Of a stretch of DNA of 35,887 nt, positions 2,490 to 35,887 are shown piece by piece. Where the stretch lies: positions 1-35,887 of the IMG/VR virus record IMGVR_UViG_3300032249_000173. One strand, given 5' to 3'. Both the position numbers and the translations under genes were made by a program. The DNA comes from a virus. The first letter of the stretch is position 1. Each line of letters starts with the position of its first letter. The notes under the pieces are model-generated. The model was given only the letters and a program-made list of their open reading frames with translations, made no database searches and was not told where the DNA came from.

Positions 2490-2750
2490 TTAATTGTAGT
2501 CTAAGTGTAACTGGCGTGGGATTATATTAAGTTTTTGACGTAACTTTTTACGCTGGAACTCTGTTGTATTGCCCCAATATCCTAGTACCTCATGGTTAAG
2601 GGCATAGTCTAGGCATTGGTCTACTACGATACAGTTGCTACATATCCTACGTAGCATTTTTATATCTGTGTACGTACTAGTTCTTTCGACTGTAAAGAAA
2701 GCCTCTGAGTCTGTGTCTGCACAGTTAGCCTCTTCTCGAAATGTATACAT
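2490..2750 (-). CDS. WhiB-like transcriptional regulator
   Basis: 86 residues with the WhiB pattern: Cys10, then CSNC (Cys37, Cys40) and Cys46 to bind a 4Fe-4S cluster, a GYWGNTT turn at 57-63 equivalent to the family's G[VI]WGG motif, and a basic tail (RKKLRQKL) expected to touch DNA. WhiB proteins bind the region-4 domain of the primary sigma factor and alter promoter choice in Actinobacteria; phage versions are known to modify host transcription and cell division. It is the last gene of the leftward operon. A clear GGAGG lies just upstream, and its ATG overlaps the stop of the FmdB-like gene (TAATG). Confidence 0.9.
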   Translation of the reverse strand: MYTFREEANCADTDSEAFFTVERTSTYTDIKMLRRICSNCIVVDQCLDYALNHEVLGYWGNTTEFQRKKLRQKLNIIPRQLHLDYN

Positions 2751-3307: not shown

Positions 3308-4034
3308 TCCAGTACAACTTATAGTACTCAACATCAAGTGCAAAGCGTTTCATATGTTTGACCAATGCACCAGTGTGTGTGTACAAAGGCACACCTGCCT
3401 TGTGCATCATGCGGAAGAAGTTAATATCTTCTGATACAAACTGCTCGCCAACTCCAGTCTCATTAAAGTATGGCTTATTGCCGTGCACCTTGCGCATCTC
3501 TGTTACTGCGTTGCGATGCATAAGTACAAAACCAAAGCCTGCTGACCCAACTTTAATAAGCGCATTAACTGGTAGTGGATGTAGGTATTGAATTTTATAA
3601 TCATCTTCAGTCCAATTAAATACAGCAGGATACGGAGACATAAGCGAGCCTTCATTTTCTTTAGAGATAAAGTAAACACCTGTAACTACTGGTCTTTCTT
3701 TTGGATTTGCTACACCCCATACTAGTTGAAGTGCTTCTTCTGTTAGTACTATGTCGCTATCTACCCAGAGAATCCAATCAAAGTCTGTCTTGTCATACCA
3801 GAAGTCCAACGCCTGTTGGCGTTGTCTTCCAATCTGATTACCCTGTACACGCATGGCTGACTTGATAGGTAACTTAGAAGTAAGTGCTGCATACACCACA
3901 CTTTCAGTAAACTTGCCATCGGTAGAGCCACCATCACACCAGCATAGGATTATCTGGTCATTCGGTTCCGCTTTCGGTCTGCTCGACATCTGTTGGTTCT
4001 GGTACAACGGTGTCTTCTTTGTTGTCTTGGTCAT
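3285..4034 (-). CDS. GT-A fold glycosyltransferase
   Basis: The protein shows a Rossmann-like beginning (QIILCWCDGGSTDG), an acidic metal/nucleotide-sugar motif WVDSDIV with DSD at residues 92-94, and a late FVSEDINFFRMMHKAGVPLY segment where GT2/Anp1-like enzymes carry an ED acceptor-site motif. It would transfer a sugar from a nucleotide donor. The acceptor cannot be read from the sequence: DNA bases, a phage protein or host wall glycan are all possible. Expression with early replication genes favours DNA or a host target over virion decoration. The start at 4034 has GGAAG 7 bases upstream; MSSRPKAE at 3989 is an alternative that reduces the overlap with the sigma-like gene. Confidence 0.78.
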   Translation of the reverse strand: MTKTTKKTPLYQNQQMSSRPKAEPNDQIILCWCDGGSTDGKFTESVVYAALTSKLPIKSAMRVQGNQIGRQRQQALDFWYDKTDFDWILWVDSDIVLTEEALQLVWGVANPKERPVVTGVYFISKENEGSLMSPYPAVFNWTEDDYKIQYLHPLPVNALIKVGSAGFGFVLMHRNAVTEMRKVHGNKPYFNETGVGEQFVSEDINFFRMMHKAGVPLYTHTGALVKHMKRFALDVEYYKLYWNGKSERP

Positions 4035-4632
4035 GGTATGGCTTCCACCCTCCTAGGTTTTTAACTAATGAGTTAAGTGCACGCTGCACCTTCATACGTG
4101 CACCATCTGGCGTGCTATCCATATCTTTAGATAGCATTGTCCAGTCTGGTGAGTCTACGCTAAAGCGTAGGCGTAGTACATTTTGTTTTTGTTCTGATAA
4201 TTTATAAAAGGCAGATGCTATATCTGAGCGCAATGACAACCAGTTGTTGCCATCCGCTGCTGCACCACTACCAAACTTAGCGTTGAGGTCTTGAATCTTT
4301 GTAGGGATTTCGTATGTTTCCCCAATGATTGAAGGCAAGAATGCTTCTACTACTGACACATCATAGTAGTACAAATCGGACATATCGTACCCGACTTTCT
4401 TTGCCTTCTCTCTTTCACAGTATGTAATTGCTGCATTACGCAGCGACTTGGCAATTAATTTGTCGCGGTCTTTTTGTGGTAGTGCAGACCATTCTTTGTA
4501 CTTACGGGGGTGACCGACAAACCACACCCACAACTCCTGACCTATGTCATCACGTTCTAACATACCATAACGCTTTGAATATTCAGATGAGAGTTGCTGT
4601 ACTAAATCGTTGTACTCTTCAATGTAATTCAT
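3958..4632 (-). CDS. Sigma-70-family-like RNA polymerase sigma factor
   Basis: 224 residues. An N-terminal helix resembles sigma region 2 (RYGMLERDDIGQELWVWFVG, about 21-40). Residues about 145-193 resemble region 4 with a helix-turn-helix (LSEQKQNVLRLRF ... TMLSKDMDSTPDGARMKVQRAL). The acidic C-terminal tail of about 25 residues is outside the core fold. Sigma-like factors of this size occur in many actinophages; they are thought to direct host polymerase to phage promoters, or to act only as DNA-binding regulators. The ATG overlaps the stop of the metallophosphoesterase (TAATG). Paired with WhiB, it suggests phage control of transcription. Confidence 0.72.
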   Translation of the reverse strand: MNYIEEYNDLVQQLSSEYSKRYGMLERDDIGQELWVWFVGHPRKYKEWSALPQKDRDKLIAKSLRNAAITYCEREKAKKVGYDMSDLYYYDVSVVEAFLPSIIGETYEIPTKIQDLNAKFGSGAAADGNNWLSLRSDIASAFYKLSEQKQNVLRLRFSVDSPDWTMLSKDMDSTPDGARMKVQRALNSLVKNLGGWKPYHDQDNKEDTVVPEPTDVEQTESGTE

Positions 4633-14370: not shown

Positions 14371-14628
14371 TCATTCTCCTATCATTTCTAACAGCACATC
14401 ACCATGACATGCTAGGGGCGCACAGAAGCACACCAAATCTCTATTCTTTAAGGGTACTAGCCAATCTGGATGGGCTAGTATCACTGCACTTGCATACTCC
14501 CTGAACTTCTGGATAACCTCCGCTCTATCTCCGTGCTTACCAATCACGTACGGATTACCCCACGGCGAGCCTCTACCTATGTACGCACCTGCACCTACAA
14601 CAACATCACGCTTATTCAAAACCTTCAT
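14371..14628 (-). CDS. DUF4326 family protein
   Basis: 85 residues. The block YIGRGSPWGNPYVIGKHGDRAEVI, a FREY helix and the ending LVCFCAPLACHGDVLLE match DUF4326, a small family common in phages and bacteria with conserved Cys and His residues near the C-terminus. Activity is not established. The ATG at 14628 has AAAGG 9 bases upstream; a TTG three codons earlier is less likely. The leader contains a hairpin (14671-14694) nearly repeated ahead of the SLOG gene, suggesting shared control. Confidence 0.8.
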   Translation of the reverse strand: MKVLNKRDVVVGAGAYIGRGSPWGNPYVIGKHGDRAEVIQKFREYASAVILAHPDWLVPLKNRDLVCFCAPLACHGDVLLEMIGE

Positions 14629-14658
14629 AGCACACAACCTTTCATAGTAGGAAATTAC

Positions 14659-14696
14659 AAAAGCCAGACCAGCACGGCGTATTTCAGCCGTGCTAG
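14659..14696 (-). promoter_or_regulatory. Leader hairpin, copy B, ahead of the DUF4326 gene
   Basis: AGCACGGC and GCCGTGCT form an 8-pair stem around an 8-base loop. Flanks AAGCCAGACC and TAG (plus strand) are shared with copy A at 15163-15200, while four inner stem positions differ and keep pairing. On the minus strand it lies in the spacer after the SLOG gene and upstream of DUF4326. No T run, so a structured RNA or protein-binding element is more likely than an intrinsic terminator. Confidence 0.6.
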
Positions 14697-14706
14697 CCTG
14701 TAACCT

Positions 14707-15111
14707 TTACTTGGTTTGCTCTAGCACCCAGTTCGGCACTGTCTTGACAGGTGTTGTGGTGGCAATCACCTTTGTTGGAATCTTAGCGATGCGAGCCTTC
14801 ACTACGGTATTAGATGCACCTGCGGAGTTATCTTTGACGAATGCCACACAGTAATCAGCACCCAACTCCACCATTTCACCATTGCGGATGAACCCTGCGC
14901 GCTTGCCATGGGTTTTCCAATCTGCGGGGTGGCGCTCAATCATCCACCCGAACTTAACAGCAATATCCTCAGCGATGAGGTCTGCACCACGGCAGTTGCC
15001 ACTGACTAGGACAACTTGCTCACCCTCGTGAGCCTGAACAACTTCCAACTCACGAACTACAGCGTCAACATCTGACCAATCACGAGAACCAGTAACTAAC
15101 AATCTAAACAT
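14707..15111 (-). CDS. SLOG-superfamily (DUF2493-like) nucleotide-binding protein
   Basis: 134 residues with the Rossmann-like signature MFRLLVTGSRDW, then VVLVSGNCRGADLIAEDIAV, ERHPADWKTHGKRAGFIRN and GADYCVAFVKDNSAGASNTV. These are the conserved blocks of the DUF2493/YspA-like branch of SLOG proteins, which are thought to bind nucleotides or nucleotide-derived signals. It is the first gene of the leftward operon, behind a structured leader, so it is likely the earliest made. AAGGAG lies 8 bases ahead of the ATG. Its role in infection is unknown; sensing or neutralising a host nucleotide signal is a speculative option. Confidence 0.85.
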   Translation of the reverse strand: MFRLLVTGSRDWSDVDAVVRELEVVQAHEGEQVVLVSGNCRGADLIAEDIAVKFGWMIERHPADWKTHGKRAGFIRNGEMVELGADYCVAFVKDNSAGASNTVVKARIAKIPTKVIATTTPVKTVPNWVLEQTK

Positions 15112-15140
15112 AACCGAACTCCTTAGAACGAACTTACGAA

Positions 15141-15157
15141 GTTATAGATTTTATAAC
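15141..15157. promoter_or_regulatory. Palindrome in the leader of the SLOG gene
   Basis: GTTATA-GATTT-TATAAC is a perfect 6+6 inverted repeat, 30 bases upstream of the SLOG start. AACTT-ACG-AAGTT (15131-15143) is a second small dyad touching it. Possible operator for a repressor of the early genes. Confidence 0.45.
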
Positions 15158-15162
15158 TACAT

Positions 15163-15200
15163 AAGCCAGACCAGCATGCCCGTCTTTTTGGGCATGCTAG
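15163..15200 (-). promoter_or_regulatory. Leader hairpin, copy A, ahead of the SLOG gene
   Basis: AGCATGCCC and GGGCATGCT form a 9-pair stem around the 8-base loop GTCTTTTT. The flank AAGCCAGACC and the closing TAG match copy B (14659-14696). It would be in the 5' untranslated leader of the early transcript if that starts near 15220. Confidence 0.65.
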
Positions 15201-15225
15201 TTCTAATAGACAGAGTGGTGGTCAC

Positions 15226-15252
15226 AGTATAATGGTTTTTAGTTACTGTCTA
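15226..15252 (-). promoter_or_regulatory. Possible leftward early promoter
   Basis: On the minus strand, TAGACA (15252-15247) and TATACT (15231-15226) are spaced by 15 bases; TTGTAG with an 18-base spacer is the alternative -35. Transcription would start near 15220 and include hairpin A. The -10 overlaps a CAGTAT element that recurs in this region. On the plus strand the same place reads TATAAT (15228-15233), without a good -35. Confidence 0.4.
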
Positions 15253-15331
15253 CAATAGATACTGGCTCCCAGACAGTCAGGCAGATAGTACACCGTCAGA
15301 CAACCCTCAGTATGTAGTCTGTCTGTACAAT

Positions 15332-15536
15332 AATAGTTCTGTCTACTGTCTATGACCCCCAGTCTTTTAACTGCCAGCAGTATTTAATACTGTATCTCTA
15401 CCTAGAAATATTTCTGTATATAGTTACAGGGGGCATATAGACTGTCTGACCAGCACTTTTAGAAATAGTTCTGTAAGAATAGTTCGTTTAGGTAGTTTGA
15501 ACAGGTTAATACTATATAGAGAGTAAAATAGTTCGT
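15332..15536 (+). repeat. Four copies of AATAGTTC(T/G)
   Basis: AATAGTTCTGT occurs at 15332-15342 and 15464-15474; AATAGTTCGT at 15478-15487 and 15527-15536. All face the same way, in the 300 bases ahead of terminase. The middle pair is 14 bases apart. Candidate binding sites for a phage regulator or sigma-related activator of late genes. Confidence 0.5.
15378..15392. promoter_or_regulatory. Palindrome CAGTATT-T-AATACTG
   Basis: Perfect 7+7 inverted repeat with one central base. Its half-site CAGTAT/ATACTG is shared with the palindrome at 15566-15579 and with single copies at 15225, 15259 and 15308. Candidate operator. Confidence 0.5.
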
Positions 15537-15565
15537 AAGTCTTTATAGAGCCTTACTCACTCTGT

Positions 15566-34420: not shown

Positions 34421-35887
34421 ATGACAGTACGTAAGTATACCTCCCGTTCACAGCAAACAACACTGTCATCAGCAGTTACCTCTGGTGCTACTGTTCTTTC
34501 AGTAACTAACGCCTCTACGTTACTTGCTGGTACAACTATCTCTGCTGGTCAAACTTTTGTAGTTGTTATTGACCCAGATACAGCCCTTGAAGAAATTGTA
34601 GAAATTACCTCTGCGTCTTCTAACAACCTGACAGTAACTCGCGCTGTTGATATGTCTGGTGCATCAGCACAAGACCACTCATCAGGTGCTGTAGTACGCC
34701 ACATGATTATTGGACGTGACCTTCGTGAATCAAACCTACACATTGAAGCAACTGGTGCTTACAATGATGGTACTAGTACTCATGCTATGCACGGACTTGG
34801 TGCAGCAGATGGTGTTGTAGTTGGTACTACTGCTACTCAAACTCTTACTAACAAAACTCTTACTGCTCCAGTTCTTACTGGTGCTGGTGTAGATGCAAGC
34901 ATTGTATTTGAAGGCTCTACTGCCGATGCATTTGAGACTACACTTACAGTAGTTGACCCAACTCAAGACAATACAATTACTTTGCCTAACACAACAGGTA
35001 CGGTTGTAATTGTTGATGCTGCTCAAACTTTAACTAATAAGACTTTAACTAGCCCAACAATTTCAGGTAGTCCAGTTATTACTGGCTTATCATCTGCTGG
35101 CATGGTATCTACTTCTGCTACACCTAAAGACTATGTAGATTCTATTCTTGGTTCTGCTACTTCTGCTGCTACCTCTGCTGCATCAGCGGCGGCTAGTGCC
35201 ACCGCTGCTGCTACATCTGCTTCTTCCGCAGCCACATCTGCAAGTTTAGCGGCAACATCAGCATCTAGTGCCTCGACATTCCAGACAGCAGCAGCAACTT
35301 CTGCTGCAAGTGCCGCTACAAGCGCCACAGCAGCCGCTACAAGCGCAACCAGCGCTGCTGCCAGTGCAACTGCTGCCGCTACCTCTGCCTCCTCTGCAGC
35401 AGCGGCTACCTCCGCTGTGGCTACATCAGCAGCCTCTGCTTTAGCCAGCCAAACTGCTGCTGCTACTTCGGCTACATCCGCTGCAGCGTCTGTTACGGCA
35501 GCGGCTACCTCAGCAACTTCTGCTGCAAATTCTGCAACGGCTGCAGCAACGTCTGCTACTAGTGCAGCCGCTTCTGTTACTGCTGCTACTACATCTGCTG
35601 CTAGCGCAGCAACATCAGCAACTGCTGCAGCAACATCTGCAGCCAGTGCGGCAACAAGTGCATCTTCTGCTGCAGCCGCAGTAGCCGCATCATTTGATGC
35701 TAAGGGTGACTTGCTAGCAGGAACTGGCGCAGGAGCATTTGACCAACTAACAGTTGCAGCAACCAACGGCTATGCTCTTACTGTAAACTCAGCAACAGCA
35801 ACAGGTCTTGCTTGGGCAGCAATTGATGCTCTACCTAGCCAGACTGGTAACTCAGGAAAATATTTAACTACTAACGGCTCAGCAGCA
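34421..35887 (+). CDS. Tail fibre/appendage protein, 3' end outside window
   Basis: 489 codons are open to the window edge, so the gene continues. The N-terminal domain (about 1-100) repeats the beta pattern of the adaptor-like protein (TSGATVLSVTNASTLL, FVVVIDPDTALEEIVEITS, QDHSSGAVVRHMI). Two TLTNKTLT motifs, common in phage fibres, follow near 143 and 204, then a long Ala/Ser/Thr stretch and the phrase FDAKGDLLAGTGAGAFDQLTV, another frequent fibre motif. It would form a trimeric shaft for host attachment. The receptor-binding tip is not in view. Confidence 0.8.
   Translation, partial: MTVRKYTSRSQQTTLSSAVTSGATVLSVTNASTLLAGTTISAGQTFVVVIDPDTALEEIVEITSASSNNLTVTRAVDMSGASAQDHSSGAVVRHMIIGRDLRESNLHIEATGAYNDGTSTHAMHGLGAADGVVVGTTATQTLTNKTLTAPVLTGAGVDASIVFEGSTADAFETTLTVVDPTQDNTITLPNTTGTVVIVDAAQTLTNKTLTSPTISGSPVITGLSSAGMVSTSATPKDYVDSILGSATSAATSAASAAASATAAATSASSAATSASLAATSASSASTFQTAAATSAASAATSATAAATSATSAAASATAAATSASSAAAATSAVATSAASALASQTAAATSATSAAASVTAAATSATSAANSATAAATSATSAAASVTAATTSAASAATSATAAATSAASAATSASSAAAAVAASFDAKGDLLAGTGAGAFDQLTVAATNGYALTVNSATATGLAWAAIDALPSQTGNSGKYLTTNGSAA
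35153..35691 (+). repeat. Ala/Ser/Thr heptad repeats in the fibre gene
   Basis: About twelve imperfect 14-residue (42-base) units such as ATSATSAAASVTAA encode a near-continuous small-residue shaft. The seven-residue period suits a trimeric helical rod. DNA copies differ by synonymous and Ala/Ser/Thr changes, so the repeat is old or under selection. The same stretch creates a long open frame on the opposite strand that is not a gene. Confidence 0.8.

Follow-up and report, generated by a model that had tools for sequence, protein, structure and literature searches.

A hairpin with drifting, pair-preserving stems and a constant GGTCTG-N5-TGTA motif in leftward-operon leaders of a likely actinobacterial phage and its relatives

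The window, meaning the whole stretch of DNA analysed here, is a virus record of 35,887 bp. The terminase encoded in it shares 63% identity with that of the Planktophila phages E7 and F5, which were isolated on 'Ca. Nanopelagicales' (PMC10202952), and a freshwater actinobacterium is therefore the likely host. The window also encodes a sigma-factor-like protein (PHROG 354; 3958-4632, minus strand) and a WhiB-like protein (PHROG 472; 2490-2750, minus strand), and proteins of both kinds have been reported for E7 and F5 too (PMC10202952). A long low-complexity repeat region with steps of 9 and 12 bases occupies 35143-35709, near the record end. Relatives for comparison comprised 80 related contigs from a terminase search and six from a SLOG search.

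A divergent intergenic region at 15200-15480 is rich in CAGACAGT/ACTGTCTG-type repeats, which are possibly operator repeats. The first gene of the leftward operon encodes a YAcAr/SLOG family protein (14707-15111, minus strand; Pfam PF10686, E = 1.5e-16) and is followed by a gene for a DUF4326 protein (14371-14628, minus strand; Pfam PF14216, E = 1.4e-19), which starts with the ATG at 14628, its reading frame being listed from a TTG at 14637. The rightward operon carries a different leader hairpin about 66 bp before the terminase gene (15535-15556, plus strand; GTAAG-T-CTTTATAGAG-C-CTTAC). This hairpin is found in the same place in nearly all relatives, around a conserved CTTTTTAGAG and with compensating stems (GGAAG/CTTCC, GCAAG/CTTGC, AGAAG/CTTCT and GCAAGGC/GCCTTGC).

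Each of the two leftward genes is preceded by a copy of the element studied here. Copy A is the promoter-proximal one, placed between the divergent promoter region and the SLOG gene, and forms a perfect hairpin at 15173-15198 (minus strand; AGCATGCCC and GGGCATGCT around AAAAAGAC) with 9 bp and, on the plus strand, the 8-nt loop GTCTTTTT, followed by AG after the stem. Copy B is placed after the SLOG stop codon and before the DUF4326 gene, at 14671-14694 (minus strand; AGCACGGC and GCCGTGCT around TGAAATAC), with 8 bp, the plus-strand 8-nt loop GTATTTCA and again AG. When G-U pairs are allowed, the stem of copy B grows to 14 bp (14665-14700, two G-U pairs) and that of copy A to 12 bp. Directly 3' of each hairpin stands the motif GGTCTG-N5-TGTA (15158-15172 for A and 14656-14670 for B, both minus strand), and these are the only two exact matches in the window. 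The identical plus-strand 14-mer AAGCCAGACCAGCA, at 14661-14674 and 15163-15176, likewise occurs exactly twice. In copy A only, a second, AU-rich hairpin, AGTTATA [AAATC] TATAACT, is located between the motif and the Shine-Dalgarno sequence (15140-15158, minus strand). Copy B begins about 11 nt past the SLOG stop codon, and it therefore probably lies within a polycistronic transcript. The initial annotation had described this pair of repeats, with inner stems that differ while pairing is kept in both, each upstream of a minus-strand gene, and the coordinates bear it out on all of these points. By themselves, the two window copies are weak evidence, and the case rests on the relatives.

A covariance model (R1) was built from nine relatives, with no window sequence included, and was searched against the window with filters off. 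Its best two matches were 15155-15205 (30.3 bits, E = 1e-4) and 14653-14709 (20.2 bits, E = 0.02), the next reaching 13.0 bits, with E-values that are rough owing to a short calibration. Over 94 loci of relatives (1.05 Mb), R1 gave 35 matches up to E = 1. These fall in the leader region of the leftward operon: wherever the terminase was located, the match has the orientation of the leftward genes and lies upstream of the terminase by about 0.4-1.1 kb. The covariance model and search of relatives that the initial annotation had suggested thus turned up further copies at the corresponding position, with differences that leave the pairs intact; a lack of further copies, one of the outcomes it had named as refuting, did not arise.

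The leftward-operon leaders of about twenty relatives share a common architecture, in which a hairpin is followed after 0-3 nt by GGTCTG. On the sense strand, the order is an outer stem, an A-rich apical loop and then unpaired GGUCUG, five bases and UGUA, the spacing between the two blocks being exactly five in 15 of the 18 copy A leaders. In many relatives the outer stem is topped by an internal loop rich in pyrimidines and then by an inner stem; these long forms keep a conserved TCAAG/CTTGA at the inner-stem base, and the window copies are short forms without the internal loop. The apical loop is loosely conserved (GAAAGAC, GAAAUAC or AAAAACG, for example) and in some leaders contains an extra small hairpin. 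The second AU-rich hairpin, which is opened by UGUA and also covaries, precedes the Shine-Dalgarno sequence in 17 of the 18 copy A leaders and is missing from copy B leaders; its self-pairing scores average 7.0 against 4.9 for chimeras, 23% of which reach 6. Taken in full, the copy A leader gives a better fold than 200 shuffled versions of it (z = -4.2).

Other structural candidates were considered and rejected. A pseudoknot between the apical AGAC and the downstream GUCU is disfavoured by a linker of 0-1 nt in the window and by the replacement of AGAC with AUAC or AAAC elsewhere. A closing stem that hides the Shine-Dalgarno sequence (UUAGAAC/GUUCUAA) is absent or broken in most relatives and is not general, and the TTGACA of the long forms has no constant spacing to a -10 element that would make it a -35/-10 promoter. 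Pairing of a 5' AACTAC with TGTAGTT is confined to some leaders.

Several lines of evidence indicate that the pairing itself is under selection. The outer stems take 20 different sequences among 29 leaders, and 217 of their 220 positions pair, falling to 46% when strands are swapped between elements; for 18 inner stems the figures are 167 of 167 and 43%, the self-pairing values in both cases being partly by construction since stems were delimited by hand. In two alignments, 8 of 17 and 4 of 11 pairs have changed on both sides. Their covariation scores are reached by none of 500 shuffles and collapse at every slid register. Individual events can also be seen, such as a compensatory C-G to G-C change between copy A and relative L203, and single compensations between close pairs (AGCATGCCC/GGGCATGCT versus AGCATGGCC/GGCCATGCT, for example).

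Because the elements had first been found partly by their stems, two checks free of that bias were added. When sites were picked by GGTCTG and TGTA-like spacing alone, leader sites mostly had adjacent perfect stems of 6-11 bp, with a minority scoring 4-5 owing to a mismatch near the base, and coding sites had stems at the random level (6% of random positions reach at least 6 pairs). When contigs were picked by a Shine-Dalgarno-side 20-mer alone, all 12 of 12 carried a hairpin and GGTCTGG upstream. Scans with the 14-mer alone return predominantly chance matches, and loose searches for GGTCTG plus a fold return mainly coding noise. Across the leaders compared, the covariation of the hairpin stems is real. 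Pairing maintained by compensatory changes is what marks a cis-regulatory structured RNA leader, and the original reading as a structured RNA or repeated regulatory element gains support from it.

One rival explanation is an intrinsic terminator, or an attenuator, whose U-run is poor. Such poor runs are said to occur in some actinobacterial terminators, and copy B, which follows a stop codon, does resemble one, with 14 pairs and then GCTTTTGTAA. Neither copy has a clean T run, as had been noted from the first; that remark needs tempering for copy B, which is weakly terminator-like in a consensus scan. A GC hairpin with an immediate U run, as in Rho-independent termination, was not found in either copy, copy B being marginal with its tail GCTTTTGTAA. 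In copy A and most relatives, however, the stem is followed by GGTCTGG rather than U; an unregulated terminator directly behind the promoter would shut the operon down, and the conserved motif would be left unexplained. We consider termination very unlikely as the main role.

Different relatives have different genes behind the leader. Copy A is followed by SLOG, DUF4326, a small cysteine-rich protein or a core gene, and copy B by DUF4326 or others, behind the same leader. Because the leader stays while the gene changes, a 5'-UTR module is indicated rather than gene-specific autoregulation, and on these comparisons the element is a leader module that appears to travel independently of the gene. 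It is present in 19 of 62 loci having roughly enough upstream sequence and missing from the other 43, and it is therefore dispensable. Accessory SLOG, DUF4326 or YbiA-like genes accompany it in 13 of the 19 loci, and such genes occur in 2 of 40 element-free loci with at least 1 kb upstream. There are one or two sites per genome. The element is absent upstream of the terminase in two cultured Planktophila phages, E7 and F5, and a pattern search of bacterial genomes returned three matches, none with a hairpin. A recombination boundary for accessory-gene swaps, comparable to gene-cassette or boundary sequences, formed by the hairpin or a short shared flank and without any role in expression, would account for the differing gene content behind the leader in close relatives. 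The conserved blocks (about 15-20 bp) are, however, too short for homologous exchange, the region shows no recombinase, and a boundary would not require selection for pairing, which makes this the least probable of the explanations weighed here.

Element-free relatives (L123-L153) have GC-rich, hairpin-rich and apparently noncoding leader DNA 350-1100 bp upstream of the terminase, with no Rfam match in the several tested. An intergenic hairpin, AGGTAGCCCTGCCGTAGGCAACAGGGCTACCT, occurs in L123, L127, L129, L139, L143, L148, L150, L171 and L177, with compensating variants AGGTAGCCCTCCCGTAGGGGAGAGGGCTACCT and AGGTTGCCC../GGGCAACCT.

To place the element among known systems, the window and a set of relatives were scanned with Rfam release 15, which gave no match at or above the gathering score and sub-threshold matches at chance level. 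No description was found in the literature covered by a limited search, and the element appears to be an RNA control element not described before. The closest description is that of SAS/ESAS in Cluster K mycobacteriophages, where the authors saw little evidence for hairpins at the mRNA level (PMC3203893). Both are actinophage elements with a short, one-directional conserved motif before the starts of some non-structural genes, with an inverted repeat just upstream of the motif in about half of them, and with the same leader on different gene families. SAS, however, lies 3-7 bp from the start, contains the Shine-Dalgarno sequence and has 11-19 copies, whereas the present motif is upstream of the Shine-Dalgarno sequence and has one or two; ESAS arms share a consensus, whereas the arms here lack shared sequence and their pairing is strongly supported. 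The 13-bp SAS consensus, GGGATAGGAGCCC near a start codon, gave three matches at 3 mismatches against 3.3 expected by chance, none of them in these leaders, and in place of the 17-bp inverted repeats with a shared consensus that define ESAS there are 20 distinct outer stems that pair at 46% when swapped.

A different comparison is offered by the stoperators of Cluster A mycobacteriophages (L5), which are mentioned in PMC3203893 and are asymmetric sites in intergenic gaps with one orientation to transcription. The leader element shares this asymmetric, intergenic, single-orientation arrangement, and an operator bound on double-stranded DNA by a phage or host protein, recognising GGTCTG-N5-TGTA with or without the palindrome, would fit the constant period of 11 nt between GGTCTG and TGTA, which equals one turn of B-DNA and counts against an RNA reading. 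The conserved TCAAG/CTTGA of the long forms points the same way. Stoperators, however, are conserved DNA sites in tens of copies, whereas here there are only one or two sites per genome, and an operator needs conserved sequence, whereas the arms of the palindrome show almost no relationship from one leader to the next. We favour an RNA over a DNA site on two grounds: keeping otherwise free arms paired is plainly useful in RNA but hardly so in duplex DNA, and copy B is probably part of a transcript; an operator is accordingly rated as quite improbable.

Among RNA-level systems, the antitermination RNAs of lambda nut (boxA/boxB) and HK022 put are likewise leader hairpins close to the promoter, with stems that drift and a loop rich in A, and copy A with its two hairpins is reminiscent of put. 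In the present element, the constant motif is 3' of the hairpin and one copy is intercistronic, and no lambda-type boxA (CGCTCTTTA) with up to 1 mismatch was found near the leaders. In the T7 early region, RNase III sites are hairpins that separate early cistrons and whose stem sequence is free. Intercistronic hairpins and free stems are found here as well, as is an internal loop in the long form. The main rival explanation is a processing or stability hairpin like those of T7, in which an RNase III cut or exonuclease block separates cistrons and protects the 5' ends of accessory mRNAs. Stem sequence is free while total helix length stays at about 12-20 bp, the build of the long form, with an internal loop of pyrimidines between a lower and an upper stem, is much like that of T7 R1.1, and one copy follows the promoter region while the other separates cistrons. 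Against this, the perfect stems of 8-9 bp in the window are short for an RNase III substrate and much shorter than those of T7, and a mere roadblock would leave the invariant flanking GGUCUG-N5-UGUA unexplained. We regard this rival as unlikely.

The reading we prefer, with slightly less than even confidence, is that of a cis-acting structured RNA in accessory early-gene leaders, most likely a landing site for a trans-acting factor. The helix base together with single-stranded GGUCUG-N5-UGUA would form a constant face, the helix sequence being free to drift provided that pairing stays. Arms that drift but go on pairing are unlikely to be recognised by their sequence, and the factor would therefore see the helix foot and the motif. 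Such a factor, a phage or host protein or RNA, may land on the leader RNA and set the expression of whichever gene follows, through translation or mRNA stability, with antitermination as a further candidate action. A bolder version, which we hold to be somewhat unlikely, is a new phage RNA regulon, in which one trans-acting factor reads GGUCUG-N5-UGUA at any hairpin foot and, early in infection, activates or protects accessory genes that are interchangeable and may have anti-defence roles. If so, new genes would plug in behind a ready-made leader.

The gene regulation of the phages of abundant freshwater actinobacteria is largely unexplored, and ESAS, the nearest described actinophage element, lacks the support for RNA pairing that is strong here. 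An RNA element common to a clade of phages, in which a clear constant face is combined with a helix free to drift, would be testable, and the element marks a slot of accessory-gene exchange in these genomes.
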